A DNA stretch of 33,644 nt, from NCBI GenBank assembly GCA_021158185.1, contig JAGGVC010000058.1:1-33644 (forward strand), given 5' to 3'. Origin of the DNA: a bacterium. GTDB lineage: Bacteria > 4484-113 > JAGGVC01. Positions 633 through 32,984 of this stretch are shown here, in pieces. Both the position numbers and the translations under genes were made by a program. The notes under the pieces were generated by a model, which was not told the DNA's origin, made no database searches, and saw only the letters and a list, made by a program, of their open reading frames with translations. Every line of letters begins with the position of its first letter. The first letter of the stretch is position 1.

Positions 633-1580
633 GTGGATGCGATACGCACCGAAGGCCTCACGCGGCGTTTCAAAGACCTGACGGCTGTGAACCGGCTTAC
701 GGTAAACGTGAAACGCGGGGAGATTTTCGGCCTCGTAGGCCCTGACGGTGCGGGAAAGACGACAACGATGCGGATGTTATCGGCGATTCTGACCCCGACC
801 GATGGCAGCGGATGGGTTATGGGATACGATATCCGCACCGAATGCGCGGCTGTAAAGGATCGGATCGCGTACATGAGCCAGCAGTTCGGTCTATATACCG
901 ACCTTACCGTGATGGAGAATATCGAGTTCTATGCGGATCTGTACGGCGTTGCGAAAAAAGGACGAAGGGAGAGGATAGACGAGCTTCTGAACTTCAGCTA
1001 CATGCACCCGTTCAAACGGAGGCTTGCGGGCAACCTGTCGGGCGGGATGAAACAGAAGCTGCAGCTCATGTGCGCGCTCATCCACACGCCTGAAGTGATG
1101 CTTCTCGACGAGCCGACGAACGGTGTCGATCCGGTTTCGAGGCGCGATTTCTGGCGCATTCTCTACAGGCTGCTGAGTGAAGGTGTGACTATCTTTGTTT
1201 CCACCGCGTATCTCGATGAGGCGGAGCGGTGCAACAGGATCGGTCTGATGCACGAGGGTGAATTGATCGCGCAAGGCACGCCGTCCGAAGTAAAGAAGCT
1301 GATGCGCGGCAGGATTATCGCCATAACTTCACCTGAGGCGCGTCGAATTGCATATCTTCTCAAATCCGAGCTTGAGGCGGTTTCCATATGCATTTTCGGC
1401 GACAGCGTGCACGTCGTAACCGACAGTCCTGAGAAAACATCAGTTTCCGCGGGGAAAATCATCAGCGAGAGCGGTCTAAGTGCGGACAGCATCCGTTCCA
1501 TAGACGCGACGCTTGAAGATGTTTTCGTGTCGATGCTCGGTGAGAAGCGAGCGTCGGCGGGGGCGGAAGATGAAAACTGA
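633..1580 (+). CDS. ABC transporter ATP-binding protein, first of a pair (YbhF N-half-like, degenerate switch)
   Basis: 315 residues. The GTG start at 633 follows the adaptor stop by 2 bp. Walker A is GPDGAGKTT (Asp where Asn is usual) at about residue 37, the Q-loop region is YMSQQFGLY, the signature is LSGGMKQ, and Walker B plus D-loop is LLDEPTNGVDP. At the H-loop it reads STAYLDEAE: the histidine expected at the Ala (THYxDEAE in the partner) is missing. A C-terminal ~90-residue domain, ending in SLDATLEDVF-type sequence, is typical of drug/ABC-2 exporter ATPases. In E. coli YbhF two such domains are fused; here they are separate genes. The likely role is half of a heterodimeric nucleotide-binding pair driving the two permeases at 2549-4879. 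The next ATPase overlaps it by 11 bp. Confidence 0.92.
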   Translation: MDAIRTEGLTRRFKDLTAVNRLTVNVKRGEIFGLVGPDGAGKTTTMRMLSAILTPTDGSGWVMGYDIRTECAAVKDRIAYMSQQFGLYTDLTVMENIEFYADLYGVAKKGRRERIDELLNFSYMHPFKRRLAGNLSGGMKQKLQLMCALIHTPEVMLLDEPTNGVDPVSRRDFWRILYRLLSEGVTIFVSTAYLDEAERCNRIGLMHEGELIAQGTPSEVKKLMRGRIIAITSPEARRIAYLLKSELEAVSICIFGDSVHVVTDSPEKTSVSAGKIISESGLSADSIRSIDATLEDVFVSMLGEKRASAGAEDEN

Positions 1581-2556
1581 AAGCACGGACATCGCGGTTT
1601 CGGTGAGCGGGCTGACGCGCAAGTTCGGAAACTTCGTCGCCGTGGATAACGTGAGTTTCGATGTGCGCAAGGGCGAAATATTCGGATTCATCGGGCCGAA
1701 CGGTGCGGGGAAGAGCACAACGATTCGTATGCTCTGCGGCCTGCTTATGCCGACGAGCGGCGAAGGCCGGGTAGCGGGGTATGACATTTCACGCGAGCAG
1801 GAGAAGATAAAGAAACAAATCGGCTATATGAGCCAGAAATTTTCGCTTTACGCCGATCTGACCGTCGAAGAGAACATCAATTTCTACGGCGGGATTTACG
1901 GGCTGAAGGCGAGTGAGTTGAAGGCGCGCGGAGAGTGGGTTATCGAGATGGCGGGGCTTACGGATCACCGCCGTTCGCTTACGGGGATACTGTCGGGCGG
2001 ATGGAAGCAGCGGCTTGCGCTCGGATGCGCGATATTGCATGAGCCGCCCATCATTTTCCTCGACGAGCCGACGAGCGGTGTCGATCCGATCAGCCGACGC
2101 GCGTTCTGGGATTTGATCTACGAGATGAGCGCGCGCGGTGTAACCGTGTTCGTGACCACGCATTACATGGACGAAGCCGAGTACTGCGACAGGATCGCGC
2201 TCATCTACCGCGGGCTTGTGATCGCGCTCGGCACACCGCAGGAACTCAAGACCGAGCGAATGAGCGATGAAATTCTCGATGTCAGATGCGAAAACCCGCA
2301 CGATGCGATGGATGAAATAGAGGAGCTTGCCTGCGTGAAGGACGTCGCGCTTTTCGGATCGGGGCTGCACGTCGTAACGCCCGATGCCAGCCTGGCAGAG
2401 ACCGAGGTAGCGAGTCTTCTCAATGAGAAGGGATACGGTTTCGACGCTATCGGAAGGATTTCGCCGAGCCTGGAAGATGTATTCGTGTCGTTGATCGAGG
2501 AAGCCGACAGCGAGAATGACGGTGGAGGCACGATGCGGGAGGCGCGCGATGCGTGA
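1570..2556 (+). CDS. ABC transporter ATP-binding protein, second of a pair (canonical site)
   Basis: 328 residues from the ATG at 1570, which overlaps the previous gene by 11 bp and sits after a GGGCGGAAG stretch. An in-frame upstream start at 1513 lies inside the previous gene and adds a poor Arg/Cys-rich sequence, so I did not use it. All ABC motifs are canonical: Walker A GPNGAGKST, Q-loop YMSQKFSLY, signature LSGGWKQR, Walker B IIFLDEPTSGVDP, H-loop TTHYMDEAE. The C-terminal regulatory-type domain ends in PSLEDVFVSL. It corresponds to the C-terminal half of YbhF and should pair with the product of 633-1580. The permease gene overlaps its 3' end by 8 bp, consistent with translational coupling. 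Confidence 0.94.
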   Translation: MKTESTDIAVSVSGLTRKFGNFVAVDNVSFDVRKGEIFGFIGPNGAGKSTTIRMLCGLLMPTSGEGRVAGYDISREQEKIKKQIGYMSQKFSLYADLTVEENINFYGGIYGLKASELKARGEWVIEMAGLTDHRRSLTGILSGGWKQRLALGCAILHEPPIIFLDEPTSGVDPISRRAFWDLIYEMSARGVTVFVTTHYMDEAEYCDRIALIYRGLVIALGTPQELKTERMSDEILDVRCENPHDAMDEIEELACVKDVALFGSGLHVVTPDASLAETEVASLLNEKGYGFDAIGRISPSLEDVFVSLIEEADSENDGGGTMREARDA

Positions 2557-3718
2557 TTCCCGGGAAAAAGCGAGTACGTCCGGGCTGAGCGCGCGGCGCG
2601 TTTTCGCCATCGCGCGCAAGGAATTCACTCATGTACTGCGCGACTGGCGGAGCCTTACGCTTGCACTTGCCATCCCAGTGATGCTGATTCTCCTTTTCGG
2701 TTATGCCCTTAACCTCGATGTGAAAAACGTGCCGACCATCGTGTACGATGCATCGGGTACGCCTGAGAGCCGCGATTTCGTCAGACTGTTCGGCGGATCG
2801 ACGTATTTCACTTTCGTTGATCGATGCGATAACCACCGCGACATCGCGCGCGCGATAGATCGCGGGCGCGCGATGGTGGCAATTGTGATCCCAACGGACT
2901 TTGCAGAATGCGTGAACGCCGGTCGAAAAGCCGAGATTCAGGTCATCGTGGACGGCAGCGACGCAAACACTGGGAGGCTCGTCACAGGTTACGTAAGCGC
3001 AGTGGGTCTGATTTATTACCGCAATCTCGTCGTGAAGCGCGCCGAGCAGGCAGGAGGAGGTGCGGTTTCGATGCCCGTCAGCGTGGAGCATAGGGCGTGG
3101 TACAACCCGGAACTGAGGAGCACGAACAACATAATCCCAGGAATCATCGCAATCGTGATGATGGTGATCGCCGCGATCCTGACGAGCACGACGGTTGCCA
3201 AGGAGTGGGAGCTCGGCACGATGGAGCAGCTGATCAGCACGCCTGTACGCGTTCAGGAACTCGTTGTCGGGAAGCTTACTCCGTTCTTCGTCATCGGCTT
3301 TCTGGACGTAACCGTTGCTGTGGCGATGGGGCAGTGGATTTTCGGCGTGCCTCTGAGGGGGAATGCCGCTCTCCTTTTTCTTATGGCAGCGGTATTCCTC
3401 ATCGGCGCGCTCTCAACCGGGTTCATGATAAGCGCGATGCTCAAGACCCAGGTTCTTGCAACACAGATCGCACTTCTTTCGACCTATTTACCGACATTGC
3501 TTCTGAGCGGTTTTGTTTTCGCGATCGAGAATATGCCTCAAGCTATCAGGGCGATTACGTATTTCGTGCCCGCGCGCTACTTCATCGCGATTATGCGAGG
3601 GATCTACATGAAGGGAATCGGGCTTGATGTAATGTGGTTCAATGCGCTTCTTCTTTCATTATGGGCGCTTTTCATGTTCGCCCTGGCGAACAGAAAGCTC
3701 AGGCTTAAGCTGGACTGA
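2549..3718 (+). CDS. ABC-2 type permease (YbhS/YbhR-like), first copy
   Basis: 389 residues. The ATG at 2549 is preceded by GGGAGG and overlaps the ATPase gene by 8 bp; the in-frame start at 2516 lies further inside the ATPase gene. Topology is classic ABC2_membrane_3: one N-terminal membrane helix (about residues 30-50, LALAIPVMLILLFGYAL), a large extracytoplasmic domain (VPTIVYDASGTPESRDFV... VIVDGSDANT), then five or six helices from about residue 205. A conserved cytoplasmic coupling segment, KEWELGTMEQLISTPV, lies after the second helix. It should form the membrane channel together with the permease at 3740-4879. The substrate could be a drug, a bile-salt-like compound or a lipid; nothing in the window decides. 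Confidence 0.92.
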   Translation: MRDSREKASTSGLSARRVFAIARKEFTHVLRDWRSLTLALAIPVMLILLFGYALNLDVKNVPTIVYDASGTPESRDFVRLFGGSTYFTFVDRCDNHRDIARAIDRGRAMVAIVIPTDFAECVNAGRKAEIQVIVDGSDANTGRLVTGYVSAVGLIYYRNLVVKRAEQAGGGAVSMPVSVEHRAWYNPELRSTNNIIPGIIAIVMMVIAAILTSTTVAKEWELGTMEQLISTPVRVQELVVGKLTPFFVIGFLDVTVAVAMGQWIFGVPLRGNAALLFLMAAVFLIGALSTGFMISAMLKTQVLATQIALLSTYLPTLLLSGFVFAIENMPQAIRAITYFVPARYFIAIMRGIYMKGIGLDVMWFNALLLSLWALFMFALANRKLRLKLD

Positions 3719-3739
3719 TTACTCGTAAGGACTTACGTT

Positions 3740-4879
3740 ATGTTCGGGCGTCTGAAACATATGTTTATTAAGGAGTTCCTGCAACTGCTCAGGGACCCGC
3801 GGATGCGTATGATTACATTTGCCGGGCCCGTGATACAGATGACTGTGTTTGCATTTGCACTCACAACTGACGTGATGAACATTAATACCGCGGTTCTCGA
3901 TTTCGATCACACGAAGTCGTCGCGTGAATTCGTAGAATATTTCACTTCGAGCGGATATTTCGAAGTGACCGAGTACGCGGATTCCCAGTCTGATATAGCC
4001 GACATCCTCGATTACAGCAGGGCGCGCCTCGTTATCAATCTGCCGTCGGGATTCGAGGATGACCTTCTGAGCGGACGCACCGCGAAGGCGCAGGTGCTCG
4101 TGGACGGAACCGACAGCAATACAGCGTCAATCGTGTTCGGCTATGCAAACAGGATTGTCGCGGATTATTCGCGCGCGAAAATGGTCGAGTTTGAGAACGC
4201 ATCGGGAAGCGCGGGGATGGTGGGGGCCGAAGGTGCGCCCTTCGAGATCGTAACGCGATCCTGGTTCAATCCGAACCTCGAAAGCAAGTATTACTTCGTT
4301 CCCGGTCTTATCGCAGTGATGATTCTCGTTATCAGCATGGTAATGACGAGCGTCGCAATTGTAAGGGAAAAGGAAATCGGCACTATCGAGCAGGTGATGG
4401 TGACGCCGATCACGCGCACCGAGTTCATCCTTGGTAAGACCGTTCCGTTCGCGATCGTCGGCTACATCGTGATGACGCTCATGCTCATAGTAGCGATGCT
4501 CGTATTCGGAATTCGGGTTAACGGAAGCATTGTGCTGCTCTATCTGCTGACCGGAATATATCTCTTCGGAAACCTGGGGCTTGCCCTCTTGATAAGCGTG
4601 ACCGCGCGGACCCAGCAACAGGCGGTTCTCACCGCGTTCCTTGTCATGATGCCGTGCGTGCTCCTGAGCGGATTCCTGTTCCCCGTTCACAACATGCCCG
4701 AAATAATCCAGTACGCAGCCTTCCTCAATCCGATGCGGTGGTATTTGGACATACTTCGCGGAGTCATTATCAAGGGTGTAGGAGCAGGTGATATATTGTG
4801 CGCGATAGTCGCGCAAACTGTTCTTGCATGCTCGTTCGTGATGCTTGCGGTATCCCGTTTCAGGAAAACGATGGCCTGA
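3740..4879 (+). CDS. ABC-2 type permease (YbhR-like), second copy
   Basis: 379 residues; ATG at 3740, 21 bp after the preceding permease. Same architecture as its neighbour: N-terminal helix (about 22-42), an extracytoplasmic domain beginning NINTAVLDFDHTKSSREFVEYF with LVDGTDSNTAS later, then a five/six-helix transmembrane block. The coupling motif REKEIGTIEQVMVTPI is followed by LSGFLFPVHNMPEIIQY near the last helices. The two permeases are clear paralogues, matching the two ATPases, so the transporter is probably a heterotetramer with the adaptor at 1-630. It is the last gene of the operon: the next gene starts 131 bp downstream behind its own flagellar-type promoter. Confidence 0.92.
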   Translation: MFGRLKHMFIKEFLQLLRDPRMRMITFAGPVIQMTVFAFALTTDVMNINTAVLDFDHTKSSREFVEYFTSSGYFEVTEYADSQSDIADILDYSRARLVINLPSGFEDDLLSGRTAKAQVLVDGTDSNTASIVFGYANRIVADYSRAKMVEFENASGSAGMVGAEGAPFEIVTRSWFNPNLESKYYFVPGLIAVMILVISMVMTSVAIVREKEIGTIEQVMVTPITRTEFILGKTVPFAIVGYIVMTLMLIVAMLVFGIRVNGSIVLLYLLTGIYLFGNLGLALLISVTARTQQQAVLTAFLVMMPCVLLSGFLFPVHNMPEIIQYAAFLNPMRWYLDILRGVIIKGVGAGDILCAIVAQTVLACSFVMLAVSRFRKTMA

Positions 4880-11344: not shown

Positions 11345-11743
11345 ATGGTAGATAACGTGAATAATCTGCACCCGCCAATCGGTCCGGCAAAGCCTGTTCA
11401 GCAGAGTCAAAAGCTCGTTAAGACGGACCAGCTTGATAGCACACAAGGCTCATTCGGCGATTTCCTGAAGGAAGCCTTGAGGAAACCGACCGATGTAGCA
11501 TTCAGTGCACACGCACAGAAGAGGCTCTCAAGCAGGGGAATAAGCATGAACGACTCTCAGATGAGCAGGCTGAGCAATGCGGTTGATCTTGTCAATGGAA
11601 AGGGCGGACAGGACAGTCTCGTCATGCTTGACGGGCTTGCCCTGATTGTGAACGTGCCCAGCCGTACAGTTGTTACCGCAATGGAAGTTGCAGGTATGGG
11701 CGAGCGCGTTGTAACCAACATTGATAGTGCCGTCTTGGGATGA
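11345..11743 (+). CDS. Flagellar operon protein of the TIGR02530 family
   Basis: 132 residues; ATG at 11345 after AAGGAGGG. The conserved block VAFSAHAQKRLSSRGISM (about residues 56-73) followed by NAVDLVNGKGGQDSLVMLDG and LIVNVPSRTVVTAME matches the small family found between flgD and flgE in Clostridia, Thermotogae and other Firmicutes-type flagellar operons. Its biochemical role is not established; the position suggests hook assembly. The sequence has no signal peptide or membrane helix. A 162-bp structured gap separates it from flgE. Confidence 0.88.
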   Translation: MVDNVNNLHPPIGPAKPVQQSQKLVKTDQLDSTQGSFGDFLKEALRKPTDVAFSAHAQKRLSSRGISMNDSQMSRLSNAVDLVNGKGGQDSLVMLDGLALIVNVPSRTVVTAMEVAGMGERVVTNIDSAVLG

Positions 11744-11780: not shown

Positions 11781-11856
11781 TGAAGGGAAAGTAGGCCGGA
11801 CGCACCTTCAGGTGCGAGGCTTGGGGCGTGGATCGATCGAAGCGCCCGTCCCTTCA
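11781..11856 (+). ncRNA. Predicted three-way-junction RNA element in the flgE leader
   Basis: Stem P1 pairs TGAAGGGA (11781-11788) with TCCCTTCA (11849-11856), 8 of 8 bases. Inside, P2 (11793-11822) pairs AGGCC with GGCTT, has an asymmetric internal loop GGA/A, then CGCACC-TTCA-GGTGCG. P3 (11824-11847) pairs GGGCG with CGCCC, plus a U-G pair, around a 12-base loop containing GATCGATC. Junction strands are short (AAGT, G, G). The element ends 50 nt before the flgE ATG. It does not match the c-di-GMP-I consensus or other riboswitches I know. It could be a cis-regulator, a processing site or a small RNA. Structure is predicted by hand. Confidence 0.5.
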
Positions 11857-11890: not shown

Positions 11891-11905
11891 CCATGGAGGG
11901 CTAAT

Positions 11906-14197
11906 ATGACCAGCGCATTTTTTACGGCTGCCGGTGGACTTAGAAACCAGCAGACCAAGATGGATGCAATCGCGTCCAACATCGCAAACATAAATACCGC
12001 GGGGTATAAGGCAAGCTCGACTATTTTTTCCGAGCTCCTTGCTCGGACCCTGCGCGGAGCCGCCGCACCGCAGGGCAACATCGGCGGAACGAATCCACTG
12101 CAGATCGGATTCGGGGCAACGATTGCCGCGATTCACACTATCATCGGACAGAGCACACTCGAGAACACCAACCGCTCGACGGATTTCGCCTTGAGCGGGC
12201 AGGGATTCTTCATCCTGAGGGACGGAACGCAGGAAGTGTACACGAGGGCTGGAGATTTCGGCGTGGACGCGTCGGGTTCCCTTGTATCCAACAGCGGGGC
12301 CAATGTACAGGGATTCACTCATCTCACCGCCAACGGATTTGAAGTCGACCCGAGCGCCGGCATCGGTGACATCATCATTCAGTTCGGCCAGAAACTTGCA
12401 GCATGGGCGACGACCGAAGTCACCTTTGCAAGCAACCTCGATGCATCGAGCGACCGGTACGGCAGCGTGAACAAGGCCACGCTCTCGTTTGGGCAGACAG
12501 GGATAATTACAGCATCCGGCGCAGCCGAGCCTTACGCTGTCACCGTTTCCCAGACGGCGATCGATCCTTTAGCGTACGTCGATCCGAGCGACATCATCAT
12601 CGACGGAAACACCGTAGACCTTTCCGGATTAACTGGCGCAACATCACTTACGCTGGCACAGCAGATTGCAGATGCGATTAACGCGGATGCAGTCGTGAAC
12701 CAGATTGTGCAGGCGACGGTAAGAAACGTTGATAACGAGGGGTTTCTCGTTCTTCAGTCGATAACCGGAGGAAGCCAGTTTACTGTAAACGGTTCAACCG
12801 CGGCGCCGTACATCGGTTTCGCCGCTACGGATGTTACATATACTTCGCCGAGCGTTCCCGGTGATTTCCTTGTGGGCAGCCACCAGATCACGGTAACGGA
12901 CAGCAAGTCGGCTACCGCAACGACAACCCAGGCTGTAGGAGTCGGTGCAAACGCCCCGCAGGTCACTGGCACATTCGACATTAATGCAGTTACAGTTAAC
13001 CTTGACGGCACCGGTACGGGTATTGCATTCGGCGATACCGGAACCTCTGCGGGCAATGCCGCAAGGATCGCAGAGATCATCAACGCGACGCCGGGAATCG
13101 AGGTTGTCGCAACCGCAAACGCCAACGGCACGATTAACCTAACCCATAAGCTCAAGGGCGAGGCGAATATTTTCGCGCTTGACAATCCCAGCTTCGGCGA
13201 CCTGTTCGATCGTCTGGGATTCAGCAGCATACCTGATGGCGACGGCGTACCGGGTCTTCCGATAACCGTCAACAACGGTATCAACGCACGCGTCGAGGAT
13301 ATTTTCTCACCTGAAGCGGGAGGAGAAGAACTTGTCAGATTCGTCGAAGACATAATCGTGTCGGGAACATCGAGCGAACTTTCAAACATCAAGGCACGCA
13401 TCAGCGGTCTTACTGCAAGCTTCCCGCTCATCCCAGGTATTATCCTCTCGATAGATGAACTGTCCGCAGGGCGCGCCTTCATCGGTACAAGCACTGCATT
13501 TGTTCATTCCACAAACAAGGTAGTTTATGACACGCTCGGAAATCCGCATGAGCTTACATTCAAGTTCACGCACGTCGACGAGAGCGTCTGGAACTGGGAA
13601 GTTTCGCTGCCCAACGAGCCGCAACTCATTCTGACGAACAACCTCGGTGATATAAACTTCGATAGCATGGGGCTTATCTCGACCCCCAATCCTGAGAGCC
13701 CGATTACATTTATGGGTGAAGGTGCGGAGCCTTCCGAAATCCAGCTTATCTTCGACGGCGGCGGACAACCGATCAACGGAATTACTCAGTTCACGGGTGA
13801 GACCACGACGGCTGCTCGTACCCAGAACGGGTATCCGATGGGCGTACTGACCGATTTCGAGACGGATTCGAGCGGTACCATCACAGGTTTCTTCAGCAAC
13901 GGTCAGAGAAGGCCGATCGCGCAGTTGGCAATTGCCACCTTCACGAATTCCGAAGGGCTTTCACGTATGGGTGAAACGACATTCAGGGATACGCCGAACA
14001 GTGGTACAGCAATGCTGAGAAGCCCTAATACCGAAGGTGCCGGGGCTGTGTTTGGCGGTTTCCTCGAACAGTCCAACGTCGATCTTGCCCTTGAATTCAC
14101 GAACCTGATCGTGGCGCAAAGAGGACTTCAGGCGAATACGAGAGTCTTTTCGGCACAGGACGAAATCCTGACCGAAATCGTGAATCTCAAGAGATAG
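11906..14197 (+). CDS. flgE: Flagellar hook protein FlgE, enlarged
   Basis: 763 residues; ATG at 11906 with GGAGGG 5 nt upstream. The D0/D1 N-terminus is typical (AAGGLRNQQTKMDAIASNIA, NINTAGYKASSTIFSELL, then DFALSGQGFFILRDG near residue 92), as is the C-terminus (NVDLALEFTNLIVAQRGLQA, NTRVFSAQDEILTEI). It polymerises into the hook, the universal joint between rod and filament. The usual length is about 400-500 residues. The extra sequence lies in the surface-exposed middle and includes two modules resembling the flagellar hook-IN motif (about residues 205-312 and 350-442). The neighbours fliK, flgD and flbD confirm identity. A predicted RNA structure precedes it and a strong hairpin follows it. 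Confidence 0.93.
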   Translation: MTSAFFTAAGGLRNQQTKMDAIASNIANINTAGYKASSTIFSELLARTLRGAAAPQGNIGGTNPLQIGFGATIAAIHTIIGQSTLENTNRSTDFALSGQGFFILRDGTQEVYTRAGDFGVDASGSLVSNSGANVQGFTHLTANGFEVDPSAGIGDIIIQFGQKLAAWATTEVTFASNLDASSDRYGSVNKATLSFGQTGIITASGAAEPYAVTVSQTAIDPLAYVDPSDIIIDGNTVDLSGLTGATSLTLAQQIADAINADAVVNQIVQATVRNVDNEGFLVLQSITGGSQFTVNGSTAAPYIGFAATDVTYTSPSVPGDFLVGSHQITVTDSKSATATTTQAVGVGANAPQVTGTFDINAVTVNLDGTGTGIAFGDTGTSAGNAARIAEIINATPGIEVVATANANGTINLTHKLKGEANIFALDNPSFGDLFDRLGFSSIPDGDGVPGLPITVNNGINARVEDIFSPEAGGEELVRFVEDIIVSGTSSELSNIKARISGLTASFPLIPGIILSIDELSAGRAFIGTSTAFVHSTNKVVYDTLGNPHELTFKFTHVDESVWNWEVSLPNEPQLILTNNLGDINFDSMGLISTPNPESPITFMGEGAEPSEIQLIFDGGGQPINGITQFTGETTTAARTQNGYPMGVLTDFETDSSGTITGFFSNGQRRPIAQLAIATFTNSEGLSRMGETTFRDTPNSGTAMLRSPNTEGAGAVFGGFLEQSNVDLALEFTNLIVAQRGLQANTRVFSAQDEILTEIVNLKR

Positions 14198-31998: not shown

Positions 31999-32016
31999 TT
32001 CATTGAGGTGATGAAA

Positions 32017-32433
32017 ATGAGATCGCTTTTTTTGATGACGATGTGCCTGAGTATCGTGTTCCTGCTGTCCTGCGGCGGCGGGAAAGAATCCGCGGTAGTG
32101 CTAGGTTCAGGCGGATATGGCTGGCAAACCGGTGATCTGGAAATAATGGTTTGTTGTCACTACCCAGGCGAGGATGTGGCAGGGCGCTTCGCCGGAGTTG
32201 ATGTCGCTGTATGGAAAACGACATCGGAACTCTTTAAGTCGGGAGAAACTTGGTCGGGAGGCAAATGCCTTTTCGAGGATTTGCCGGTTGGCAATTATCT
32301 TGTCACGATTCGGGGTGTCATAGACGACGGGTATTTTATTAGGGATTTCCCGAATGACGAATGGTTTCCCGTGACGATCAGAGAAAACGAAACGACGTAT
32401 TTCTCGTATACCGTGGAATGTAGAGAGAAATAA
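32017..32433 (+). CDS. Small lipoprotein with CnaB/SpaA-like beta-sandwich (copy 1)
   Basis: 138 residues; ATG at 32017 chosen for the GAGGTGAT site 4 nt upstream (ATG 32011 and GTG 32008 overlap that site). Lipoprotein signal MRSLFLMTMCLSIVFLLSCG, with lipobox LLSC and Cys at residue 19, followed by a Gly linker. The mature part (DLEIMVCCHYPGEDVAGRFA, then FAGVDVAVWK, LFEDLPVGNYLVTIRG, FPNDEWFPVTIRENETTYFS) has the strand pattern of a single prealbumin-like/CnaB domain, whose hallmark is lpxGxYxVxI. It has a tandem paralogue at 32550-32984. Role unknown; probably anchored in the cell envelope. Confidence 0.83.
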   Translation: MRSLFLMTMCLSIVFLLSCGGGKESAVVLGSGGYGWQTGDLEIMVCCHYPGEDVAGRFAGVDVAVWKTTSELFKSGETWSGGKCLFEDLPVGNYLVTIRGVIDDGYFIRDFPNDEWFPVTIRENETTYFSYTVECREK

Positions 32434-32549: not shown

Positions 32550-32984
32550 ATGAGATCGCTTTTTTTGATGACGATGTGTCTGATCGTGTTCCTGCTGTCC
32601 TGCGGCGGCGGCGGGAGTGAGTTGCAGCAAATTCTAAATCCACCGCCAAGACTAATAGGGAATTTGGAGATTACGGTTTACAGAGAATACGCACACTGGG
32701 CAGGTGATGATCGTCCTCCCACAACAGCCGGTGGAATAGAAGTCGGCATCTGGGCGTCTCAAACTGAGTTGTTGTATTCCGGCAAAACAGATAGTGCGGG
32801 AATGTGGGGAACGTATAATTTGACCGTTGGCGATTATCTTGTCACGATTCGGGGCGAAGAAGAATCCAATGATGAGGATTGGTATCGCTATTTTCCGAAC
32901 GATGAATGGTTTCCCGTGACGGTCAGGGAACACGAAACGACGCTGTTTTCGTATACCTTGGAGTGGCGTCAGAAAGACGATTAA
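32550..32984 (+). CDS. Small lipoprotein with CnaB/SpaA-like beta-sandwich (copy 2)
   Basis: 144 residues, tandem paralogue of 32017-32433. The signal MRSLFLMTMCLIVFLLSCGG is nearly identical, one residue shorter by a 3-bp deletion, with lipobox LLSC. The C-terminal half also aligns (TVGDYLVTIRGEEES, FPNDEWFPVTVREHETTLFS), while the middle (IGNLEITVYREYAHWAGDDR, IEVGIWASQTELLYSGKT) has diverged and contains a longer loop. Both copies carry a run of seven T in codons 4-6. Its TAA overlaps the stop of the convergent gene at 32981. Function unknown. Confidence 0.83.
   Translation: MRSLFLMTMCLIVFLLSCGGGGSELQQILNPPPRLIGNLEITVYREYAHWAGDDRPPTTAGGIEVGIWASQTELLYSGKTDSAGMWGTYNLTVGDYLVTIRGEEESNDEDWYRYFPNDEWFPVTVREHETTLFSYTLEWRQKDD

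Follow-up and report, generated by a model that had tools for sequence, protein, structure and literature searches.

A structured RNA occupies positions 11,781-11,856 of the window, the whole 33,644-nt stretch analysed here, in the leader of the hook-protein gene flgE. It belongs to a new RNA family, found in flgE and flgG leaders, whose reality as a structured family we regard as virtually certain. The element recurs upstream of these two genes and very probably regulates them in cis; its most likely role, to which we give about even odds, is that of an operator bound by the TIGR02530/PF12611 'flagellar operon protein'. The family crosses phyla, sits before two core flagellar genes and is apparently missing from Rfam, and its pairing with TIGR02530 offers a testable function for an uncharacterised flagellar protein family.

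The operon order in the window is fliK-flgD-TIGR02530-[RNA]-flgE-flbD-fliM, and all features given for the window element and its two neighbouring genes lie on the forward strand. The element starts 37 nt after the stop codon of the TIGR02530 gene (11,345-11,743), which encodes the trans-acting partner proposed from co-occurrence and an AF2 model. It ends 49 nt ahead of the start of flgE (11,906-14,197), the putative regulated gene, whose Shine-Dalgarno sequence GGAGG is found at 11,895-11,899; the initial annotation had named the downstream gene correctly. RNAfold reproduces exactly the three-way junction drawn there, with its 8/8-bp closing stem, its hairpin bearing a GGA/A loop and a capped GC stem, and its second hairpin.

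The optional closing stem P1 pairs UGAAGGGA (11,781-11,788) with UCCCUUCA (11,849-11,856), according to RNAfold and a P1 pairing test. P2 opens with the P2a 5' strand UAGGCC (11,792-11,797; nGGCY across the family), followed by the GGA of an asymmetric internal loop (11,798-11,800), the capped, GC-rich 6-bp hairpin P2b, CGCACC-UUCA-GGUGCG (11,801-11,816), the single A facing GGA (11,817; A or G across the family) and the P2a 3' strand GGCUUG (11,818-11,823), placed by RNAfold and the family alignment. P3 consists of strands GGGCGU (11,824-11,829) and GCGCCC (11,842-11,847), both assigned by RNAfold and by the loop-anchored test described below, around the 12-nt loop GGAUCGAUCGAA (11,830-11,841). 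This loop does contain GATCGATC, read initially as an eight-base GATC repeat; it is, however, simply the form taken here by a 12-nt loop that the family conserves (consensus NGANYGAYYGAN), and not an independent repeat. The predicted energy is -38.0 kcal/mol, against -26.1 +/- 3.2 kcal/mol for dinucleotide shuffles (z -3.77; 1/200 shuffles as good).

Ten genomes of the window's phylum were examined, six of which have flgE. The three-way junction lies between TIGR02530 and flgE in 6/6 flgE-bearing genomes of the window's class; the stem sequences differ and the pairing is retained, and on these comparative grounds the pairing is beyond chance, as the early judgement had it. P1, for instance, reads UGAAGGGA/UCCCUUCA in the window; in G001 it is CGGGGC/GCCCCG, and G002, G005 and G007 have the GGAGC/GCUCC type, with other complementary stems in its place at loci L003, L005-L007, L034, L035 and L032. 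A BLAST-type DNA search for relatives found none, being blind to them because the sequence diverges while the structure holds. Viral contigs searched for FlgE also yielded nothing, nor did an initial scan through contigs of genomes. Two class members lacking FliM and FlgE matches have FlbD-like genes (G004:C29:17482-17655 and G006:C90:4055-4231), which could be relics of lost flagella or reflect another role of FlbD.

Elsewhere in the window, two small lipoprotein-like genes (32,008-32,433 and 32,550-32,984) are tandem duplicates whose upstream regions are duplicated too (repeats D1, D3, D12 and D14). At 633-4,879, an HlyD-like gene is neighbour to an export system of the ABC type, which comprises two ATPases and a pair of RbbA/DrrB-like permeases.

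In unrelated bacteria, a descriptor search detected the same core directly before flgE or flgG. We built a covariance model, R1, from four such loci, none of them from the window's class, using an indel-free four-sequence seed because MAFFT had at first aligned the cores with a wrong structure. R1 recovers the window element (E 0.003 in 0.72 Mb) and matches about 24 other loci, nearly all immediately upstream of flgE or flgG. Among the lineages represented are Actinomycetota, Candidatus Aquicultor, Hydrogenedentota, Omnitrophota, Chitinispirillales, Rhodothermaeota, Kapaibacterium, Clostridia and Alkalibaculum. Iteration gave a family of 52 sequences, drawn from many phyla and again lying with few exceptions right ahead of flgE or flgG.

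All of the 17 modelled pairs show double-sided changes with pairing retained. Paired cells amount to 93.9% vs 67.1% in shuffled alignments, and the covariation score of 0.703 (vs 0.222 shuffled) is reached in 0/500 shuffles and lost when the register is slid. RNAalifold returns the same 17 pairs from the family alignment. Since alignments made by a model lean towards its own structure, P3 was also examined blind to structure, anchored solely on the loop sequence NGANYGAYYGAN: 222/234 flanking positions pair, with a shuffle mean of 136 and maximum of 155. Across distant genomes, compensatory changes are thus found in P2 and P3, and for a subset in P1, together with recurrence before flgE, which is what the covariance search suggested at the outset was meant to look for. 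The adverse outcomes named beforehand, leaders lacking the pairing or stems broken without compensation, were not the pattern seen: relatives keep the pairing with compensatory changes, and the proposal of a new structured RNA is borne out. Intergenic regions often contain GC-rich inverted repeats, with many in the window, and a reader might take the element for hairpins arisen by chance or for a palindromic repeat that moves. The 17/17 covarying pairs and the loop-anchored P3 result refute both; the position is conserved as well, a DNA search detects just one copy in the own genome, and we consider the likelihood of either origin negligible.

The family consensus of P2 is nGGCY-GGN-CC...GG-[A/G]-RGCCn. 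Its GG is present in 52/52 members and followed by A in 42/52; the remaining 10/52 carry GGC, GGU or GGG. In P3, some 7 bp of stem carry a 12-nt loop in which GA recurs at positions 2-3, 6-7 and 10-11; the first and last of these could, from their sequence, form tandem sheared G.A pairs; the strict pattern fits 39/54 members. P1 is optional: it exceeds the 95% null in 14/53 leaders, most of the window's class among them. Four leaders (L052, L160, L163 and L097) have P2 only, and members differ in the size of P2b and in their distance from the start codon. Conserved sequence is small, being limited to the GG, one A/G and three GA steps.

Besides flgE, the family precedes flgG in several lineages, the copies sitting between flgF and flgG where the context was read. 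The own genome has such a second copy (G000:C49, about 4464-4522, minus strand; L036 1936-1994), 33 nt before flgG, which scores E 4.8e-6 and carries its own P1. Further copies precede flgG in G001, G003, G005, G076 and G128, and in the separate class containing G128 there are one to three copies per genome in 7/7 genomes. Other genomes have copies before flgG that are unlinked to the TIGR02530 gene. Control of hook expression by the element, as the initial annotation proposed, is plausible; control extends likely to the distal-rod gene flgG, a point absent from it.

Since the window element lies between genes of one operon, and the TIGR02530 stop is often only 0-15 nt ahead of P2, so that a terminating ribosome would melt P2, it might instead be an intercistronic processing or stability element (an RNase site, 5' protective hairpins or a coupling spacer) with no dedicated ligand or protein. 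We find this improbable: a generic hairpin would not keep GG/A and NGANYGAYYGAN across phyla, nor recur before an unlinked flgG, nor track TIGR02530 in its presence.

A few copies have other surroundings. A good copy outside flagellar genes (L173 995-1052, minus strand; G141:C29) has as its neighbours a gene resembling type II secretion F and one for a KdsB/PseF-like cytidylyltransferase. We considered P3 as an intrinsic terminator and rejected it, as this fits only that copy, in which a T-run follows P3. In L155 and L178 (G128 and G243) the element is ahead of a gene for a Pro-rich protein of about 300 aa (MSLDRIDNSNMYLAML...) with no NCBIfam match, which may be a further regulated gene. In L054 and L071 (4881-4970), the P2 5' strand TGAACTGGACCTC has a second possible partner in a repeat further downstream, GAGGCCAGTTCA, which suggests a local switch with this pairing as the alternative to P2.

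The three-way junction had been likened to ligand-sensing leaders, and a riboswitch that turns flgE or flgG expression on or off in response to a small molecule, for example a nucleotide second messenger, has some appeal: the junction is compact with conserved internal and apical loops, two tandem copies stand ahead of flgE in G187 (L175, G187:C82), and in 4/6 leaders of the window's class the flgE Shine-Dalgarno sequence is complementary to a strand of P1 or P2. Sequestration of that sequence by the element reaches p<0.05 in 5/42 leaders of the family and in 4/6 of the window's class, the window itself not among them. A Shine-Dalgarno switch is thus suggested within this class, and a general one is unsupported family-wide. 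No general expression platform was found, conserved nucleotides are few, P2-only versions exist, and the element is strictly confined to TIGR02530 genomes. Neither the c-di-GMP riboswitches nor any other riboswitch in Rfam matches; the GEMM-I core and an RF01051 match are absent, in agreement with the initial annotation, which had seen no c-di-GMP-I consensus. Altogether, the ligand-sensing idea is unsupported, and we think a riboswitch unlikely. The scarcity of conserved nucleotides, the P2-only leaders and the presence of TIGR02530 in all RNA genomes point to a protein partner instead.

For this co-occurrence we used 231 genomes, of which 96 are flagellated (FliM+). The RNA occurs in 29 and TIGR02530 in 43 of the 231, and TIGR02530 is present in 29/29 RNA genomes. 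Among the 96, 29 have both, 13 have TIGR02530 only, none has the RNA only and 54 have neither (p 8e-15, phi 0.75, values inflated because the RNA and TIGR02530 are syntenic and co-inherited with the operon). The genomes are not phylogenetically independent, and the syntenic neighbour flbD also correlates. On inspection, some of the TIGR02530-only genomes have P2-only or divergent versions, or nothing recognisable. Among flagellated genomes the phi with the RNA is 0.46 for FlbD, 0.17 for FliW and 0.13 for CsrA, which leaves TIGR02530, with the strongest co-occurrence, as the best candidate partner; we would put the chance that it is the partner at about one half, on these genomic grounds.

CsrA itself deserves consideration, since it could, within the FliW-CsrA circuit, block flgE translation by binding the conserved GGA. 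That triplet is present in 42/52 members, and CsrA and FliW are common in RNA genomes, the own genome included. But the GGA lies in the P2 internal loop and not in a hairpin loop, and GGC, GGU or GGG replaces it in the other 10. CsrA is absent from 4/29 RNA genomes and FliW from 4/29, with both absent from G164 and G179, and among flagellated genomes the RNA shows no association with CsrA (p 0.29). This lack of association and the GGC/GGU/GGG variants led us to reject CsrA as the partner, and such an operator is very improbable. In the own genome (G000:C115:10074-10973), the frame after FliW encodes 187 aa and has two stretches resembling CsrA; this double architecture in a single protein is found throughout the window's class, and is possibly a fused, single-chain CsrA dimer.

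The AF2 model of the preferred partner, TIGR02530, is a confident beta-alpha-alpha-beta-beta-beta domain (pLDDT 89), and its invariant polar residues are S54, H56, R60, R64, T111, N125 and D127. The order of secondary structures resembles that of RelE-type RNases. The family has a weak match to Pfam DUF4258 (7/19 members, best E 0.0026). Foldseek returned nothing significant for the model in the PDB, the top matches including CdiA-CT NC101 and colicin E5-type nuclease domains, so that we treat a RelE/BECR fold as no more than a lead. In a literature search of largely openly readable papers, none dealt with TIGR02530, and DUF3766 was mentioned once, in passing.

With TIGR02530 as the partner, the recognised surface would be two hairpins, P2 with its GGN/A internal loop and P3 with its 12-nt NGANYGAYYGAN loop, often closed by the variable P1 into a three-way junction. 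The protein would bind P2/P3 of the flgE leader in cis and, as we infer, of the flgG leader in trans. Binding would then co-ordinate the hook and rod mRNAs through their translation or through their stability and decay; activation and repression are both compatible with the data. Because it is conserved before flgE and flgG and confined to TIGR02530 genomes, the element is probably a switch for making hook and rod. For the hook and the distal rod, the known controls act mainly on transcription and through the export switch; if the proposal is true, there would be dedicated post-transcriptional control of both. More tentatively, TIGR02530/PF12611 may be a dedicated RNA-binding regulator of flgE and flgG mRNAs, possibly RelE/BECR-like and RNA-cleaving, constituting a second post-transcriptional checkpoint of flagellar assembly that would serve rod and hook much as FliW-CsrA serves the filament.

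At gathering thresholds, Rfam 15 has no match in the window or in 24 loci that contain the element or lie close to it. In relaxed scans the window element has no match even at E 10, and further loci give chance-level matches only. A literature search, covering largely openly readable papers with the 2017 set of 224 candidate RNAs outside the comparison, found no description of a flgE leader RNA; as this literature was partial, an unindexed earlier description is possible.

The c-di-GMP-I and -II riboswitches (RF01051, RF01786) precede flagellar operons in some bacteria. Their junction architecture is alike, but the conserved nucleotides differ and there is no match even at E 10.

The Termite-flg motif (RF01729; Weinberg et al. 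2010) is likewise a candidate structured RNA whose name points to flg genes, and several members of the new family come from Clostridia MAGs resembling gut symbionts. It is, however, a 106-position model reported from termite hindgut only (PMC2864571), whereas the new family occurs in many phyla. No element found here matches it at gathering or relaxed thresholds; a search with it gave matches in 0/8 genomes at E<=1, and the genomes of L072, L075, L083, L085, L095 and L107 have no match. The flg-Rhizobiales motif (RF01736), also a flg-named structured RNA, differs by its restriction to Rhizobiales (PMC2864571) and has no Rfam match here.

A known system with points in common is FliW-CsrA, in which flagellin mRNA is controlled post-transcriptionally via a GGA-containing leader RNA (PMC6529632, PMC4894983). 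Both concern a flagellar structural protein, with predicted post-transcriptional control for the new family, and a leader containing GGA. FliW-CsrA, however, acts on flagellin, while the new RNA precedes flgE and flgG, does not track CsrA or FliW, and does not strictly keep the GGA.
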